From Streptomyces sp. JB150 (lineage in GTDB: Bacteria > Actinomycetota > Actinomycetes > Streptomycetales > Streptomycetaceae), in contig NZ_CP049780.1 of NCBI RefSeq assembly GCF_011193355.1, forward strand, positions 134,072 through 198,071: a DNA stretch of 64,000 nt, written 5' to 3'. The notes below the pieces were generated by a model, which saw only the letters and a program-made list of their open reading frames with translations, searched no databases and had not been told where the DNA came from. Both the position numbers and the translations under genes were made by a program. Shown here in pieces: positions 46,524 to 55,520 of this stretch (position 1 is the first letter of the stretch; each line of letters opens with the position of its first letter).

Positions 46524-49496
46524 CTACTGGTCTCCGTCCGGCGAGGGCCCGCCGTCGCGTGCGGTGAGCAGTCGCCGGATACGGGCCCGGACCTCGGGTG
46601 GGAGATCGCGCAGCCCGCCCAGCACCCGGGCCCGGACGGCGTCCTCTTCGCCGGGCGGCAGCTCCGGGGCGCCGAGCAGCAGCGTCAGGACGTCGTGCGC
46701 GAGGGAGGTGGCCGGGCCGCCCGGTGAGGTGAGGAAGGTGGTCACGGCGGGCCCCAGCCAGGTGTAGACCGGGTCCATGACGTGGCGTACCACGCCGTCG
46801 TTCGTGCCGTCGGAGACGTCCGCCTTGTGCCGCAGTTCATGCCAGTAGGTGCGGGACCAGCCCGGGCCGTCGTTGCCCTGCGGGAACCGGTAGAGCCAGT
46901 TCATGTCCAGCGGCTGCGGCGGGTCCGGCGGGGTGCCGCCCCGCAGGGAGATGTGCAACTCCCTGCCCTGTTCGTTCCAGCCGCGGCTCAGCGAGAGGGA
47001 GAGGGCGAAGTCGGTCCACTGCTCCTCGTCAAACGAGGAGCGCCACAGCAGTACGTGCCGGTGCCAGGCGCCGGCGTGATCGTCCCAGGACGGGAACAGC
47101 TCGCCGGCGGTGACACGGCCTTTGAACAGCAGGATCACCAGGACGAGGTTGGCGCCGTAGATGCCGTGGCGGGCGGAGGTCCGCAGGCCGGGTGAGGCGG
47201 CATACCGGGTGGGCCGGTAGGCGCGGTGGGGTTCGTGCGTGCGTTGCCCGTGCTGGTGCAGTACGGCGGTGAGGAGGCCCGCCAGCCGTTCCCGCTCGGC
47301 GGCGGGGATCCGGCGGACCATCGAGGCCGCGAACCGCAGCATCTGCCGGGAGGACAGCGGCGCGTACGAGAGCAGGGTGTACGCGAGATCGTCGTCGACG
47401 CTGCGCTCGGCCACGGACAGGGACGGGCGGTGGGCCACCAGGCTCGTCAGCACGTGCAGGGTGAGACGTACGACCAGGTACTCGCCGAAGGTGGCGTGCA
47501 GGAACTCGTACGTGGCCAGCACCCGCCCGTCCCGCACGGACTGTGCGCGCTGGACGAAGAAGAAGCGGCCGAGCGTCACTTCGGCGGCGCCAAGTGGGGT
47601 GCGGAACCCGGATGCCTCGGCGGACGCCCGGCCCAGCAACGCCGTGAGGTCTTCGTCGAGTTCGGCGACCGACACCCATTGGCGGCGGCGGTTGTGCAGC
47701 GCGAAGGCGACCAGGGACAGCCGTTGCAGTTCGCGTTCGGCGCGGTCGCGTGCCTCGTCCTCCGTCACGGCGGCGAGGGCCGGGGCGGTCTTGTCGGTCT
47801 CGCGGCGGGCGAAGGAGGTGAGCAGTTCCTCGTACAGCTCGGCCTCGTCGAGCGGACTGTCGCTGTCGCGGCGCAGGGCGTTGCCGGTCGCGTCGTACAT
47901 CGCGAGCATCGTCAGCAGCAGCGGTTGTTCGGCGAGCGACCGGTGGCGGGCGACGGCCGCCCAGTCCAGTGGCCGCAGTCCGCGTGCGGCGAAGCCGTCG
48001 GCGTTCGCCTCGTTCCACAGGGCGAGCCACTGGCGGATCTGGTCCTCGCGGAACGGTTCCAGGCGCAGGGCGACCAGCCCTTCGGGGTAACGGGCCCGGT
48101 CCGCCACGGCGATACGGCTGGTGACGAGGGCCCTGAGAGGGCGGCCCTGGTCCGCCTCGCGCTGCTGGAAGTGCGCGACGCGGGTGAGGAAGTCGCTGTG
48201 GTGGACCCCGGTGGTCTGCAGCAGCTCGTCGAAGCCGTCCAGGAGCAGGACGGGCACGGCGTCTCCGGCCGCGCGCACCAGGTCCGGCCAGGAAGCCCGT
48301 TCCCCGGTCGCGGCCCGCACCGCCTGCTCGATCTGGGTCTGCAGGTCGTCCTCCGCGTGCACGTCCCGCAGGGGCACGCGTACGGGCAGGAAGCCCGCCG
48401 CCGGGAGCCGGGCGGCCAGCACGCGCGTCAGCACGGACTTCCCGGCCCCCGGCTGGCCGAGGACGAGCAGGGGCGACGCGGCCGATCCGGCCGATGTGAG
48501 GGCTCCGGCGAGGTAGCCGGTGATGTCCCCGCGTACCGGAACCTCCTCCCACCACGACTCGTTGGCCGGTCCGCTGGGTCCGGCCACCTCACGCACCCGG
48601 AAGTCCGGGTCGAGGTACATCTCCCGCAGAGTCGGGACGCGGATGCCCGCCGGCCCGGAGGAGGCGTCCAGGACGGAACGGGTGAGCACGGCCTCCGCCG
48701 CGCGGACCAGGGCGGCGGCGACGTCCACGGGCGGACGCGCGGCTCGGGCGAGGCCGCCCAGCAGCTCGGTCACCCCCGCGAGGGACCGGCGCACCTCGGC
48801 CCGCGTCGCCTGGTGCTCGATCCGCGTGACCCACAGGTCGAACTCAGGCGCTTCCTGCGCGAGTTGTGAGTAGAGCGACGCGTACTGCTCGACGGCGTCG
48901 CGCGGCAGATCGGCGCGGATCACCCGCCCGGCCTCCTCCCGGGCCGCGTCACTCTGCGCGTGCCACACCCGCAAACCCTCGGCGAAGTCGAGAAACCTCG
49001 CGGACAGGCCCTCGTACCAGCGGTGCAGCTCGGCCATGACCGCCTCGACCGGCCGGTGGGGCGCGGGGCTGGGCGCGTCGGCGGCCGCGAGCGACCGGGC
49101 GAACGCGTACCCGCGCTCCACCGCCGGCGACACACCCGCCAGGGTGAGCTGTTCGCCGCGCGTCAGCTCCAAGTCCGCCAGCCTCAGCGGGAGTCGCCGA
49201 TCCTCCAGCGCCTGGAACCAGGCGACCACGACGATCACCGTGTGGGCGGCGTGCAGCAGTTCGGTCCGCTGCGCGCGGCCTTCCGCGTGCGCCAGACGCC
49301 GCCCGATCCCCCGCACGGCGCCCCGGCCCAGCGTAAGCACGCTGCCGCGGGCGTCGGCGATCCGGAGCAGCCCGTCGGACACACCGCCGGTCGCCGCGTT
49401 CAGCGCCCCGCCGAGCGCCCGGTCCAGGGCGGCGACGGCGGGCGGGTCACAGCCCAGCAGCGCCAGCGCGTCCGAGAAGGACAGCAGTCTCCGCAT
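46524..49496 (-). CDS. NACHT-domain STAND NTPase
   Basis: This large (990-aa) STAND protein has an N-terminal about 300-residue helical region found in actinobacterial NACHT proteins (conserved LLRIADARG, AWFQALEDRRLPL), a NACHT domain with Walker A GQPGAGKS (347-354), Walker B VLLLDGFDELL (416-426) and sensor segment RALVTSRIAV, then a winged-helix/helical region (FLHATFGEYLVVRL) and a C-terminal helical part without classic repeats. Related NACHT proteins (Avs and bacterial NLR-like groups) protect against phages. GGAG precedes the ATG. It is divergent from a DUF1963 gene. Confidence 0.88.
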   Translation of the reverse strand: MRRLLSFSDALALLGCDPPAVAALDRALGGALNAATGGVSDGLLRIADARGSVLTLGRGAVRGIGRRLAHAEGRAQRTELLHAAHTVIVVVAWFQALEDRRLPLRLADLELTRGEQLTLAGVSPAVERGYAFARSLAAADAPSPAPHRPVEAVMAELHRWYEGLSARFLDFAEGLRVWHAQSDAAREEAGRVIRADLPRDAVEQYASLYSQLAQEAPEFDLWVTRIEHQATRAEVRRSLAGVTELLGGLARAARPPVDVAAALVRAAEAVLTRSVLDASSGPAGIRVPTLREMYLDPDFRVREVAGPSGPANESWWEEVPVRGDITGYLAGALTSAGSAASPLLVLGQPGAGKSVLTRVLAARLPAAGFLPVRVPLRDVHAEDDLQTQIEQAVRAATGERASWPDLVRAAGDAVPVLLLDGFDELLQTTGVHHSDFLTRVAHFQQREADQGRPLRALVTSRIAVADRARYPEGLVALRLEPFREDQIRQWLALWNEANADGFAARGLRPLDWAAVARHRSLAEQPLLLTMLAMYDATGNALRRDSDSPLDEAELYEELLTSFARRETDKTAPALAAVTEDEARDRAERELQRLSLVAFALHNRRRQWVSVAELDEDLTALLGRASAEASGFRTPLGAAEVTLGRFFFVQRAQSVRDGRVLATYEFLHATFGEYLVVRLTLHVLTSLVAHRPSLSVAERSVDDDLAYTLLSYAPLSSRQMLRFAASMVRRIPAAERERLAGLLTAVLHQHGQRTHEPHRAYRPTRYAASPGLRTSARHGIYGANLVLVILLFKGRVTAGELFPSWDDHAGAWHRHVLLWRSSFDEEQWTDFALSLSLSRGWNEQGRELHISLRGGTPPDPPQPLDMNWLYRFPQGNDGPGWSRTYWHELRHKADVSDGTNDGVVRHVMDPVYTWLGPAVTTFLTSPGGPATSLAHDVLTLLLGAPELPPGEEDAVRARVLGGLRDLPPEVRARIRRLLTARDGGPSPDGDQ

Positions 49497-50931: not shown

Positions 50932-53304
50932 GTGAGCCGGGACACGTACGGTGGGGATCGGATCGACTTCAGTAATGGGACATTCCGGGGTGAGGCGATC
51001 GGGAAGAAGGTGGAGCACCACCACTACGGACCCATGCCGCGCGTAGAGGACGCGCTTCCGCCGTCGGCGGTCGGGTTCACCGGGCGGGAGGAGGAACTCG
51101 CCTCGCTGCTGGCGGCGTTGGCACCCGCCGGTGCCGGACGGACCGCGGTCCCGGTCCTCGCAGTGACCGGGCTGGGGGGTGTGGGGAAGACCGCGCTGGC
51201 GGTGCGCGCCGCTCACGTGGCGCGGGAGCATGGCTGGTTCCCGGGCGGCGCGCTGTTCGTCGACTGTCACGGCTACGACGAGACACCCGCCGGGCCCGAA
51301 CAGTTGCTGGAGGCCCTGCTGCGTGCCCTGGGGGTGGCGGCCGCGCATGTGCCGGGCACGCTGGACGAGCGGGCGGGGCTGTACCGCTCGGTGCTGGCCG
51401 AGCGGGGTCGCACGAGCGGCCCGGTGCTGGTCCTGGTCGACAACGCCTCGCATCCGGGGCAGGTCAGGCCACTGCTGCCCGGCCACACCGCGCACCGGGT
51501 ACTGGTCACCTCGCGTGACACCATGCCTCAGCTCGGCGCCCACCTGTTCCGTCTGGACGTACTCCGGCCGGAGGCGGCGCGGGACGTCCTGCACCGCGCG
51601 CTGCACACGGCCGGTCCCGGTGACCGACGCGTCGCGGACGATCCCGACGCAAGCGGGCGGCTGTGCGAACTGTGCGGGCGGCTGCCCCTGGCTCTGCAGA
51701 TCGCCGCCGCCCTGCTGGTCGCCGATCCGGGCAAGCCGGTGGCGGAACTCGTGTCGGAGCTGGTCGGTTCCACCACACTGCTCGATCACCTGGACGACGG
51801 CGAGCGAGGCGTGCGGGCCGCCTTCGACCTGTCGTACCGCCGCCTGGATCCGCAGGCCGCCCGGCTTTTCCGGCTCCTGGCGCTCGCGCCGGGATCGGAG
51901 ACGAGCGACGAAGCGATCACCGTGCTCTCCGGAGCCCGAGCTGGAGACGAGCCCGGAGCCGGAGACGAGGCCGGGGCCGGAGACGGGGCCGGAGACGGAG
52001 ACGGATCGCGGCTGCCCTCGGAATCGGGTCCGGAACCGGGAGCCGGTGCCGTGCCCCGCCGGGAGCTGAACGTGCTGGTCCGCGCCCACCTGGTCGCACC
52101 AGGCAGTGTGCGGGGCTGCTGGACCCTGCACGACCTGGTCCGGGCCTACGCGCTGGACCAGGTGTCCCGGCAGGAGTCGCTGCGGGAGGAGGGCGGGCGG
52201 GCGCGGGCCCGGCTCCTCGCCCACTACCAGCGGCGGGCCGAGGCGGCCGACTGGTTCCTGCAGGCCCGGGCCGGCCGGGCCCCGACGTCCGGCTTCGGCG
52301 GACACGAGGACGCGCTGCGCTGGCTCGACCGCGAGCGCACCGGCCTCGTCTCCGCCGCGCTGTGGGCGGCCGACCCCGCCCACGCCCGGGACGGACTGGA
52401 GCTGGCACTGCGCCTGCACGGATACCTCAACTGGCGGCGGTACTTCGACGACGCCGTGACCGTCTTCCGGTGTGCCGCGCGGACGGCGGACGCGCTGCGC
52501 GACGGCCTCAGCGCGGGCAAGGCGTGGAACCGTCTCGGTCTGGCACTGCGCAACAACCGCAGAATCGAGGAGGCCGTCGCGGCGCACACACGAGCCTGCG
52601 AGATCCACCGCACGCGCGGCGACCGGCTCGAGGAGGGCCTCTCCTGGGACATGCTGGGGATCGCCCTGACCGAGGCGCGCGCCTACGACGAGGCGCTCGC
52701 GGCCCATGAACGCGCCCGTGAGCTGGTACGCGCGTGCGGGCAGCCCCAGGCGGAGGCGTCGGCCTGGAACAACCTCGGGCGCACCCTGTTCCTGCTCGGC
52801 CGCTTCGACGAGTCGATCGTCGCCCTGAGCCGAGCCCGTGACATGTTCCACGCGGTCGGCGACCGGTTGCGCGAGACCACCGCGACGAACAACCTCGGGC
52901 GCTCCTTCCGCGAGACCGGGCGCCTGGAGGAGGCCCTCGCGGCGCACACCGCCGCCCGGGCGGTCTTCGAGGAGCTGGGCACCCGTGAACGTCTCGCCAC
53001 GGCGTGGAACGACTCCGGGACCGCGCTGGCCGCGCTGGGCCGGTGCGGCGAGGCCGTCGACGCGCATCTGACCGCCGTACGGGAGTACGAGGACCTGCGC
53101 GACCGGCATCGGCAGGCGCAGGCGGACAACGACCTGGGGATCACCCTCCGGCGTGCCGGCCGCCACGCGGAGGCGCGCGACGCGCATCTCGAAGCCCTGC
53201 GCCTGTTCCGGGAGCTCGCCGACCTGCACGGGGAGAGGGAGACGCTCGAACTCCTCGGCGTCGTGGAGCGCGGCGAACGGCTCGGGACCGCGGAGCACCG
53301 GTGA
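50932..53304 (+). CDS. NB-ARC STAND NTPase with TPR array
   Basis: This 790-aa protein has a short leader (GDRIDFSNGTFRGEAIGK) seen in many Streptomyces NB-ARC proteins, an NB-ARC ATPase with P-loop GLGGVGKTA (80-88), RNBS-like VLVLVDNAS, TSRDT and GLPLAL-like GRLPLALQIA, a winged-helix region interrupted by a Gly/Asp/Glu repeat (about 350-365), and at least six tetratricopeptide units (about 520-780; AWNRLGLALRNNRRIEEAVAAHTRA pattern). No ribosome site precedes the GTG; a CACGAT box about 10 nt upstream suggests a leaderless transcript. It overlaps the radical SAM gene by 4 bp. NB-ARC/TPR proteins are regular partners of FxSxx-COOH peptide systems. Confidence 0.88.
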   Translation: MSRDTYGGDRIDFSNGTFRGEAIGKKVEHHHYGPMPRVEDALPPSAVGFTGREEELASLLAALAPAGAGRTAVPVLAVTGLGGVGKTALAVRAAHVAREHGWFPGGALFVDCHGYDETPAGPEQLLEALLRALGVAAAHVPGTLDERAGLYRSVLAERGRTSGPVLVLVDNASHPGQVRPLLPGHTAHRVLVTSRDTMPQLGAHLFRLDVLRPEAARDVLHRALHTAGPGDRRVADDPDASGRLCELCGRLPLALQIAAALLVADPGKPVAELVSELVGSTTLLDHLDDGERGVRAAFDLSYRRLDPQAARLFRLLALAPGSETSDEAITVLSGARAGDEPGAGDEAGAGDGAGDGDGSRLPSESGPEPGAGAVPRRELNVLVRAHLVAPGSVRGCWTLHDLVRAYALDQVSRQESLREEGGRARARLLAHYQRRAEAADWFLQARAGRAPTSGFGGHEDALRWLDRERTGLVSAALWAADPAHARDGLELALRLHGYLNWRRYFDDAVTVFRCAARTADALRDGLSAGKAWNRLGLALRNNRRIEEAVAAHTRACEIHRTRGDRLEEGLSWDMLGIALTEARAYDEALAAHERARELVRACGQPQAEASAWNNLGRTLFLLGRFDESIVALSRARDMFHAVGDRLRETTATNNLGRSFRETGRLEEALAAHTAARAVFEELGTRERLATAWNDSGTALAALGRCGEAVDAHLTAVREYEDLRDRHRQAQADNDLGITLRRAGRHAEARDAHLEALRLFRELADLHGERETLELLGVVERGERLGTAEHR

Positions 53305-54431
53305 GGCGGCCACCGCACCGGGCGCGGCTGGCGAGGACCAGCTCCCTGGTGCTGCTCCAGCCGACCCCGCTGTGCAACCTCGACTGCCGTTACTGCTACC
53401 TGCCCTCCCGCGGGCTCGCCCGCGTCATGTCCCACGAGGTCGCCGACGCCGTCGCGGACACCGTCGGCGCGTGGTCGGAGCACCACCCGGTGACGGTGCT
53501 GTGGCACGGCGGCGAGCCGCTCACCGCGGGCGTGTCCCGCCTGCGGGGGCTGCTGGACCGCTTTCCCCCCGGCCGCGAGCACCCCGTGCGGCACTCCGTG
53601 CAGACCAATGCCTCGCTGATCGACGAGGCCTGGTGCCGGCTGTTCGCGGAGCGCCGGATCAGGGTCTCCGTCAGTGTCGACGGTCCGGGCCCCGGTTCCG
53701 CACGGCGCGACCGCGCCGGGCGGGACGCCACCGACCGCGCGCTGCGCGGCATCGCGCTGCTCAGGGAACACGGCATCGCGTTCGGTGCCATCGCCGTCGT
53801 GAGCGACCCCTCCCCGCACAAGGCGGCCGAGCTGCATGAGTGGTTCGCCGCTCTCGGCTGCCGGGTGCTGGGAGTCAACCTGGTGGAACGCAAGGGCGTG
53901 AACGCCTCGGCCGTGCGCGACGACGAGAACGTCGCGGAGTTCTGGGCCACGCTGGCCGCCCGCGGGCGCGCCGACCGCTCCCTGTCCCTGCGCGACCTCG
54001 AGCACGCCTGGCGGTACGTCAGGGCGGAGCTGGCCGGCGTGGCCCGGCGGTGGGCCGATCAGCCGCTCGATCCGCTGCCGATGGTCACCTGGGACGGGCA
54101 GGTGGTCGTCCTCAGTCCGGACCTCGCGGGTTTCTCCTCCGCGCGCCACGGGCCGTTCACGGTCGGCGACGTACAGGAGCGGGGGCTGGCCGGCTGCCTG
54201 GCCCGCGCCGAGGAGACGCCCTGGGTCGCCGAGGCCCTCGACGGGGTCGACGCCTGTCGCGCAGGGTGCGGCCTGTTCGCGTACTGCCGTGGCGGGCAGG
54301 CTGCCAACAAGCATTTCGAGACCGGCCGGCTGGACGCCACCGAGACCGTCTTCTGCCGGAACAGCAGGAAGCTCCTGATGGAGGGACTGATACGCGATGC
54401 GGAACGAGTCGCCGGAACCGGCCCGGGCTGA
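53301..54431 (+). CDS. Radical SAM/SPASM peptide maturase, FxsB/GrrM-like
   Basis: This 376-aa enzyme has the 4Fe-4S radical SAM site C25-x3-C29-x2-C32 (PTPLCNLDCRYCYLPS), GGEPL for SAM binding, and a C-terminal SPASM-like Cys set: DACRAGCGLFAYCRGG then NKHFETGRLDATETVFCR. That tail pattern (C..GC..F..C.GG...NK..E.G....TET..C) is shared by FxsB, GrrM and OscB, which form cyclophane or related crosslinks in ribosomal peptides. Here one residue of the usual CGGG is changed to CRGG. The GTG start overlaps the NB-ARC stop, and the small peptide gene overlaps its 3' end by 35 bp. The modification is unknown. Confidence 0.88.
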   Translation: MRRPPHRARLARTSSLVLLQPTPLCNLDCRYCYLPSRGLARVMSHEVADAVADTVGAWSEHHPVTVLWHGGEPLTAGVSRLRGLLDRFPPGREHPVRHSVQTNASLIDEAWCRLFAERRIRVSVSVDGPGPGSARRDRAGRDATDRALRGIALLREHGIAFGAIAVVSDPSPHKAAELHEWFAALGCRVLGVNLVERKGVNASAVRDDENVAEFWATLAARGRADRSLSLRDLEHAWRYVRAELAGVARRWADQPLDPLPMVTWDGQVVVLSPDLAGFSSARHGPFTVGDVQERGLAGCLARAEETPWVAEALDGVDACRAGCGLFAYCRGGQAANKHFETGRLDATETVFCRNSRKLLMEGLIRDAERVAGTGPG

Positions 54432-54615
54432 GGACCGCGTACGGTCCCCGGGCGCCGGCCTGTTCGCCCTGTTCCCGCTGCCGGACGCCGAGGTGTGCGA
54501 GGAGTGCGGCGACACCGCGTGCGCGCACGCCTCCACGCTCTACTCGGGTGCCACCGAACCTCCGATCCGGGGCCACCTCGATGACACCGTGACCGGACAG
54601 GACGGGCTGGAGTGA
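54397..54615 (+). CDS. Small Cys/His peptide, candidate substrate of the radical SAM enzyme
   Basis: This 72-aa peptide starts inside the radical SAM gene (GAGGGA about 10 nt upstream) and is the last gene of the triplet. It has an acidic leader-like N-terminus, a hydrophobic GAGLFALFPLPD segment, a CxxCx4CxH cluster (C34, C37, C42, H44) and a polar tail with Y49, H60 and TVTGQDGLE. It lacks the FxSxx C-terminus of FxsA. It may be a RiPP precursor, or a small metal-binding partner protein. I do not recognise a family. Confidence 0.65.
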   Translation: MRNESPEPARAEDRVRSPGAGLFALFPLPDAEVCEECGDTACAHASTLYSGATEPPIRGHLDDTVTGQDGLE

Positions 54616-55037: not shown

Positions 55038-55520
55038 ATGACGGAGAACAGCACCGGCACCGGTCCGGGCAACCGGTCCGACACCGGCGTGAGCGCGCTG
55101 CAGGGGCGCACCGGGGCCGGCGCTCCGGCGGAGACCCGGGGGAAGACCAGCATCGCGGACGGCGTGGTGGCCAAGATCGCGGGCCTGGCCGCCCGCGAGG
55201 TGCCGGGCATCCACAGCCTCGGCGGAGGCATGACCCGCGCTCTGGGAGCCATGCGCGACCGCGTGCCCGGCGGGAGCGGGGGTGTCACCCGGGGCGTGAG
55301 CGTGGAGGTCGGGGAACGGCAGGCCGCCGTCGACCTGGACATGGTCGTCGAGTACGGGGTCTCGATCGTCGACGTGGCCGGTGACGTGCGCTCCAACGTG
55401 ATCGACGCGGTGGAGCGGATGACGGGCCTGGAGGTCGTCGAGGTGAACGTCGCCGTGGGCGACGTGCACCTCCCCGACGAGGAGGAGGAGACCGCACCGG
55501 ACGAGGGGCGTGTGAGGTGA
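55038..55520 (+). CDS. Asp23/Gls24 family envelope stress protein
   Basis: This 160-aa protein has a typical Asp23 core: KTSIADGVVAKIAGLAAREVPGIHSLG, then VSVEVGERQAAVDLDMVVEYGVSIVDVAGDVRSNVIDAVERMTGLEVVEVNVAVGDVHL. The protein lies at the membrane in Staphylococcus through an anchor partner and is induced by alkaline or osmotic stress. GAGGTGATC lies before the ATG. The tiny membrane protein 85 bp downstream could be its anchor (inference). Confidence 0.92.
   Translation: MTENSTGTGPGNRSDTGVSALQGRTGAGAPAETRGKTSIADGVVAKIAGLAAREVPGIHSLGGGMTRALGAMRDRVPGGSGGVTRGVSVEVGERQAAVDLDMVVEYGVSIVDVAGDVRSNVIDAVERMTGLEVVEVNVAVGDVHLPDEEEETAPDEGRVR

Follow-up and report, generated by a model that had tools for sequence, protein, structure and literature searches.

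Positions 134–198 kb of the 7.32-Mb single-contig genome of Streptomyces sp. JB150 (a stretch of 64,000 nucleotides, here called the window) contain three overlapping genes, which encode an NB-ARC/TPR ATPase, a radical SAM/SPASM peptide maturase of the AmcB family, and a 72-aa peptide with a putative Cys3His core. We tentatively interpret the three genes as one unit: the AmcB-family enzyme probably introduces a crosslink into the C-terminal part of the peptide, and the peptide so modified would serve the ATPase as its output inside the cell. The genes are as follows.

50932–53304, + strand: NB-ARC (AP-ATPase/STAND) plus TPR protein, 790 aa, GTG start; Pfam models AAA_16 and TPR_12 pass their cut-offs, AfsR (8k60) the best solved relative
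53301–54431, + strand: AmcB-family radical SAM/SPASM peptide maturase, 376 aa, GTG start; NF041718, 502.2 bits
54397–54615, + strand: 72-aa peptide, ATG start; likely the maturase substrate, from its conservation and its position behind the maturase

The overlaps are exactly 4 and 35 nucleotides (nt), as an earlier note on this DNA had reported for three rightward genes, and the coordinates came out the same when re-derived. That note also treated the genes as one unit, a claim supported by the presence of the triplet in all six distinct loci of the window's own AmcB group. We searched for AmcB in 392 genomes of the genus and in a set of named genomes, taking the best 80 of 182 loci from the latter scan; the group names A to F are labels of this analysis. 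AmcB exceeded its cut-off in 26 of the 392 genomes, three of which carried group A, the group of the window maturase (G000, which is the JB150 genome itself, G016, and G306). Five group-A loci (L039–L043) were among the best 80 of the 182 loci from named genomes. Since G016 and G306 are apparently identical to L039 and L042, the distinct group-A loci number six: the window and L039–L043.

A conserved peptide gene behind the maturase

An open reading frame (ORF) of 60–87 aa follows the maturase in all six group-A loci and starts within the maturase gene, overlapping its end by 35 nt in four loci, 47 nt in one, and 107 nt in one. A profile search of 5.8 billion proteins returned 12 relatives, all of this type, of which one was the window's own peptide. 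The ratio of nonsynonymous to synonymous differences (pN/pS) ranged from 0.18 to 0.79 and was below 1 in 15 of 15 peptide pairs over codons 13–53, outside the 35-nt overlap; we note that the pairs are not independent and that the maturase overlap is longer in L040 and L041. Because of its presence beside all six distinct maturases, its 12 database proteins, and the low pN/pS of every pair, the 72-aa peptide is a real gene, beyond what chance would give.

Eight residues were invariant across the 15 distinct peptides, namely C34, C37, C42, H44, L48, G51, R16, and P27. Position 53 was Ser or Thr in all 15, Tyr49 was kept in 14, and Phe26 in 12. The description of the third gene as a Cys/His peptide lacking the FxSxx C-terminus was confirmed, with CxxCx4CxH formed by C34, C37, C42, and H44 and a C-terminus of TGQDGLE. 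The predicted features of the peptide are as follows.

54430–54471, + strand: candidate leader motif EDRVRSPGAGLFAL (residues 12–25), like the leader sites of other AmcB precursors
54496–54528, + strand: C34-x2-C37-x4-C42-x-H44, possible core or metal-binding site, the same in all 15 peptides
54535–54555, + strand: TLYSGAT (residues 47–53), putative core motif, in two copies in 3 of 15 peptides

The second copy, of the form TL[YH]SG[GD]T, occurs in P0126, P0131, and L040 (P0126 and L040 being near-identical), and such repetition fits what would be expected of a core. Searches of the window peptide against NCBIfam and Pfam at an E-value of 0.1 matched no family. The idea that the peptide accompanies homologues of the maturase held in part. 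It is conserved in all six distinct close loci, as described above, and was not found beside AmcBs outside group A; it was seen only with maturases of 78%–100% identity, and the others carry other cores. Among the matches listed from open-licence literature on AmcB, triceptides, and FxSxx-COOH systems, this peptide type was not found, and the sole AmcB paper concerned another compound.

Identity of the maturase

The maturase was assigned to AmcB, the "cyclophane-forming radical SAM peptide maturase" of NCBIfam (NF041718), at 502.2 bits against a cut-off of 425. The earlier note had taken its tail for the FxsB/GrrM/OscB type. Both tail motifs, ACRAGCGLFAYCRGG and TETVFCR, are present in the sequence; that assignment nevertheless has to be given up in favor of AmcB, as the protein scored 83.1 bits against 370 for FxsB (TIGR04269) and 207 against 310 for GrrM/OscB. 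A database search yielded 270 homologues, and among the 120 matches listed, most of those with source names other than "uncharacterized" were named AmcB.

All eight cysteines of the iron–sulfur (Fe-S) type are present (C25, C29, C32, C112, C319, C323, C329, and C352), each kept in 59 or 60 of the 60 aligned maturases.

53373–53396, + strand: radical SAM motif CxxxCxxC (C25, C29, C32), in 60 of 60 aligned maturases
54255–54356, + strand: auxiliary-cluster cysteines C319, C323, C329, and C352, in 60, 60, 60, and 59 of 60

The AlphaFold model of the maturase had a mean predicted local distance difference test (pLDDT) score of 93.6. Its best Foldseek matches were the sulfatase-maturating enzyme anSMEcpe and then ChlB, solved with the leader of its precursor bound (PDB 9gm3, 9gmc). 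ChlB is likewise a radical SAM enzyme acting on a ribosomally synthesized and post-translationally modified peptide (RiPP), but it shares 22% identity with the window maturase and has a different substrate.

Two candidate signs of enzyme divergence were set aside. A first list of group-A-specific residues suggested co-divergence near the Fe-S sites, but a control over eight groups gave no enrichment (3 of 25, P = 0.455). Cys299 was considered as a mark of group A, being present in 6 of 60 maturases, all group A; it occurs in 15 of 121 database rows, but cysteines private to one group exist in C and D as well, so it was given no weight.

Substrate cores among related AmcBs

Related AmcB systems carry several distinct precursor cores. 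Canonical precursors are of the FDNRPTWDN type, and those of group F (Micromonosporaceae and one further genome) are WNHFENIPTFFNWNN-like. The three canonical precursors tested passed AmcA cut-offs, two with AmcA_1 and one, from group F, with AmcA_3a. Other cores are ECHDIASIFGW in group E (16 database relatives), a WEG stretch in group B, and FHKFxSMxQxW in group C. NCBIfam matched no family on the precursors tested from groups A (two, P0123 and P0132), B (one), C (one), and E (one). Standard AmcA identity was rejected for the window peptide, which matched no AmcA model and has no FDN/WDN core; a search without a positive control found no canonical AmcA elsewhere in the JB150 genome.

Of the 67 distinct maturases, 64 were placed in a tree, where groups A (6 rows), B (3), C (5), E (5), and F (4) each formed one clade. 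Groups A, B, and E join with support of 100/99 and are nested inside the FDN/WDN AmcBs; A with B alone had 93/76, below the program's star. Because group A nests among canonical FDN/WDN AmcBs, the Cys3His core is probably derived, the canonical core having been replaced. The triplet resembles the Amc triceptide system (AmcB NF041718; AmcA NF041721, NF041722, and NF041723) in maturase family, in the small precursor directly behind the maturase, and in a partly similar leader. It differs from that system in its Cys3His and TLYSG core and in having an NB-ARC/TPR gene in front, which was seen beside none of the canonical AmcBs examined.

Precursors of L049, L123–L125, and P0133–P0148 mostly carry ECH[DE]xA[SG]IFGW or a near variant, with no NB-ARC neighbor in the loci seen; judged by sequence, they are another unmodelled AmcB substrate type. 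L119, L120, and L121 pair AmcB and NB-ARC/TPR proteins with acidic precursors containing a WEG stretch, one of which was tested and had no NCBIfam match. L048, L053, L058, L035, and L122 encode AmcB-like enzymes, precursors with FHKFxSMxQxW-like ends, and a divergent or nearby NB-ARC/TPR gene. The two enzymes scored from this FHKFxSMxQxW group, L035 and L036, both fell below the AmcB cut-off, and L122 also encodes a MinD-TIR-NB-ARC-TPR protein over the FxSxx_TPR cut-off (817 vs 300).

Leader motif and candidate bonds

Leader motifs were sought in 23 precursors of other groups. A motif built from the sites of groups B, E, and F only (12 sites), roughly [DE]R[IV]xxxRxxL, gave the window peptide a score that 8 of 3176 decoy ORFs also reached, as did 75 of 10,000 shuffles of the peptide itself. 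Three other group-A peptides were equalled by even fewer decoys of the 3176 (P0132 by one, P0123 and P0131 by three each). A first motif, which mixed two leader types, was weaker, with 60 of 3187 decoys equalling the window peptide. Profile comparison of the group-A peptide with group-F precursors gave P = 0.0017. This resemblance to the leaders of other AmcB substrates offers moderate support for a precursor role.

In reviewed triceptides, the bond runs from an aromatic ring to C-beta of the residue at i+2 (PMC11002830). Position i+2 of Tyr49 is Gly in all 15 peptides, so the standard triceptide bond is impossible there. For His44, an i+2 partner is possible in 14 of 15 peptides when the doubtful Pro of P0125 is counted, the remaining peptide (P0122) having Gly. 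Group E precursors keep a His in 14 of 16, followed by Ile, Thr, Ser, or Val at i+2.

Three bonds would be candidates in the window peptide. His44 could be joined through its ring to Ser46 C-beta, as in the HaaB type; any one of the three cysteines could form a thioether; or Tyr49 and Thr53 could close a larger ring. The HaaB bond itself is given in the same review as His to Ala (PMC11002830). The Haa system (HaaA/HaaB/HaaT) is similar to the triplet in combining a cyclophane maturase with a TPR protein and in the possibility of a His-based bond, and two group-A peptides (P0132 and L041) contain His-Ala-Ala. It is dissimilar in that the window NB-ARC protein scored 266.1 bits against a HaaT cut-off of 1125, and the peptide matched none of the NCBIfam models.

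The NB-ARC/TPR ATPase

The 790-aa protein consists of a P-loop NTPase followed by TPRs, with AAA_16 and several TPR models over the Pfam cut-off and a sub-threshold NB-ARC match (16.8 vs 23.5 bits). Its best solved relatives are AfsR (8k60, 1e-50) and TPR proteins, including G-protein-signaling modulator 2 (LGN). The extra N-terminal part of AfsR binds DNA, and the window protein has no counterpart of these 280 residues. TPR superhelices bind peptides. The Pfam scan revealed no DNA-binding or recognizable effector domain, and the protein fell below the cut-off of FxSxx_TPR (116 vs 300), as it did for HaaT.

50956–51009, + strand: N-terminal motif DRIDFSNGTFRGEAIGKK (residues 9–26), kept in six of six group-A loci
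51169–51192, + strand: Walker A GLGGVGKT, with G80, L81, G82, G83, G85, K86, and T87 invariant in eight NB-ARC proteins

An NB-ARC/TPR gene lies directly upstream of the maturase in all group-A (6/6) and group-B (3/3) loci, with the 4-nt overlap in all six of group A. In group C it is divergent in four of five loci and downstream in the fifth (match 3.9–5.8 kb past the maturase start). The other 53 of the 67 loci showed no adjacent copy within upstream flanks that spanned 0.16–9.2 kb; three of these (L044, L046, and L071) have less than 0.7 kb and cannot be judged.

Relatives of the ATPase were sought in eight chosen genomes. The best outside group A, at 61%–63% over the NB domain, came from four Streptomyces loci (L158–L161), none beside AmcB. 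A PNP_UDP_1 gene adjoins the NB-ARC gene in all four. L158, L160, and L161 also encode a small protein with a hydrophobic stretch, and in L159 such a protein lies 3.4 kb off. These four loci have a phosphorylase gene where the triplet has AmcB and the peptide. PNPases figure among the predicted effectors of bacterial conflict systems (PMC8195603). The N-terminal motif, of the form IDFxNGTFRGExxGKK, has related versions in two phosphorylase-linked loci (DHVDFRGGTFYGPVTG in L158 and DHVDFGDGTFFGQVVG in L161). It could be a signaling motif of the kind described in bacterial relatives of nucleotide-binding leucine-rich repeat (NLR) proteins (PMC7889193). L158 is in the JB150 genome itself (G000:C1:5234000-5247000), as a divergent NB-ARC/TPR pair around a phosphorylase-superfamily gene and the small protein; one gene of the pair is apparently interrupted.

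Cassette borders

The triplet stands alone between an SbcD-type and a UPF0029/IMPACT-type (UPF0029/DUF1949) gene in L040, L042, and L043, these flanks having been identified by Pfam for the L042 pair and by matching sequence for the other two. The same two genes are 42 nt apart in L058, where the sequence before SbcD matches L040. Because its two flanking genes are direct neighbors in another locus, the triplet resembles a self-contained three-gene cassette. No exporter or protease gene is present in the cassette as bounded in these three loci. An empty site for the window's own insertion was not found among three loci compared; L166, L167, and the 14-kb L177 share only the upstream gene, which occurs in 54 of 199 genomes. 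PADLOC returned only weak TPR, pVip, and mad8 matches and no known defense system.

Comparison with FxS systems

That NB-ARC/TPR proteins are partners of radical SAM FxSxx peptide systems, as the earlier note stated, is a published theme: AP-ATPases with TPRs have been proposed to be coupled to a radical SAM/SPASM-modified peptide acting as toxin or signal (PMC7159879, section 24). The triplet shares with these FxS (FxSxx-COOH) systems a radical SAM/SPASM enzyme, a small fast-evolving peptide, and an AP-ATPase with TPRs. In contrast to them, it has AmcB instead of FxsB, the peptide does not end in FxSxx, and the cassette lacks the metallopeptidase, vWA-MoxR core, and TIR domain. The earlier note had seen no FxsA-type peptide and allowed for one nearby, outside the window; no ORF ending in FxSxx occurs within 20 kb on either side of the triplet. 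The sole FxSxx-ending frame in the stretch scanned is 255 aa, looks like a chance frame, and lies just over 20 kb upstream. When 150 of 547 candidates in the JB150 genome were scored with the FxSxx-COOH model, one sub-cut-off match emerged (22.9 vs 28, G000:C1:2373955), 2.2 Mb away. With the FxsB score, the missing nearby ORF, and this single distant, weak match, FxsB/FxS membership was rejected. The match itself may mark a separate FxS-like locus (G000:C1:2368062-2374074), with a radical SAM gene and a 730-aa frame, the match lying 5.4 kb away.

We read the system as a variant of the published NB-ARC/TPR-coupled radical SAM peptide systems, in which AmcB stands for FxsB and a Cys3His/TLYSG peptide for the FxSxx peptide, and nothing else.

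Proposed mechanism and rival explanations

In the proposed mechanism, the AmcB-family enzyme would modify the small peptide encoded behind it, with the bond falling in the segment C34–T53. The peptide would stay in the cell, as no transporter or protease accompanies it, and would take the effector place that a phosphorylase may take in sister systems. The sequences themselves show the overlapping gene order, the conservation of all three parts, the intact Fe-S cysteines, a core unlike that of AmcA, and the kinship of this ATPase with relatives next to a phosphorylase-superfamily gene. A bolder version, in which an NLR-type switch is armed with a RiPP, appears unlikely as a whole. It would have AmcB converted from making aromatic-Asn cyclophanes to forming a new bond on a Cys3His/TLYSGGT core, with a metal-binding or crosslinked peptide replacing the nucleoside phosphorylase as the effector of the ATPase.

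A number of observations weigh against the peptide as a modified output. That it is the output of the ATPase and not its input was chosen by us, not demonstrated. The leader likeness is no more than moderate: when the group-A peptide was compared by profile with groups E, B, and C, the P values were 0.28, 0.30, and 0.27. Of the 3176 decoys, 285 and 245 scored as high as the leaders of L041 and P0125, and 1610 and 975 as high as those of P0129 and P0130, both listed from residue 15; in P0122 the best leader site falls in the core (42 decoys). Gly (P0122) and Pro (P0125) at position 46 disfavor a conserved His44-X46 bond. Group E, in the same clade, had no NB-ARC neighbor in five of five loci; AmcB-type enzymes can thus do without the ATPase. 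Group-B NB-ARC proteins share 54%–59% with the window's over the NB domain, less than the phosphorylase-linked ones, so co-descent of NB-ARC and maturase in A and B is not established. Two weaker NB-ARC relatives (L162 and L163, 48%–52%) have no phosphorylase-like gene in their gene listings.

The strongest rival, which we consider possible if not probable, makes the modified peptide the input: the TPR part would recognize it, either as a ligand or as a guarded self peptide, and the output would be the ATPase. The peptide-binding habit of TPR superhelices and the LGN structures among the best TPR matches suit this arrangement. The ATPase has no recognizable effector domain, so either a partner or the ATPase itself must act; the lack of a known output domain also counts against the rival, and so does the separately encoded phosphorylase, the likely output in the relatives. 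Distinctly less plausible is a conventional triceptide-like natural product that is secreted and regulated by the NB-ARC/TPR protein. AmcB is named for cyclophane formation, NCBIfam includes the TPR protein HaaT in Haa RiPP biosynthesis, and AfsR, the closest solved NB-ARC relative, is a regulatory protein; but the Pfam scan gave the 790-aa protein no DNA-binding domain, and the bounded cassette has no exporter or protease.

The peptide might instead be a small zinc- or metal-binding Cys3His protein, a partner of AmcB or the ATPase that is itself left unmodified. CxxCx4CxH is more strictly conserved than any possible aromatic crosslink site. A precursor agrees better with the repeated TLYSG, the gene position directly after the maturase, and the similarity of the leader, and we regard an unmodified metal protein as quite improbable; metal binding and modification could both be true. 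An FxS system with its FxsA elsewhere in the genome would draw on the weak FxSxx-COOH match, but we find it hardly credible given the distance of that match, its nearness to another radical SAM gene, the maturase score far under the FxsB cut-off, and the 20-kb flanks free of FxSxx-ending ORFs.

If the tentative reading of the peptide as intracellular output is true, an NLR-type switch would be coupled to an unusual modified peptide. The triplet would then be a minimal, bounded, three-gene case of the association between NLR and modified peptide, small enough to transfer whole. Related AmcBs also form a natural substrate-change experiment, with at least five cores (FDN/WDN, WNHFENIPTFFNWNN, ECHDIASIFGW, WEG, and Cys3His-TLYSG), so that core specificity and the contribution of NB-ARC/TPR partners can be tested directly.

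Neighboring genes

A second STAND-type gene lies 1.5 kb from the triplet (46524–49442, - strand, start estimated). Its product has an NNH7 helical domain (187 bits) and, after it, a NACHT/AAA region that scored sub-threshold; PADLOC gave it a weak mad8 match only. Downstream of the triplet, at 55038–55520, is a gene of the Asp23 family.

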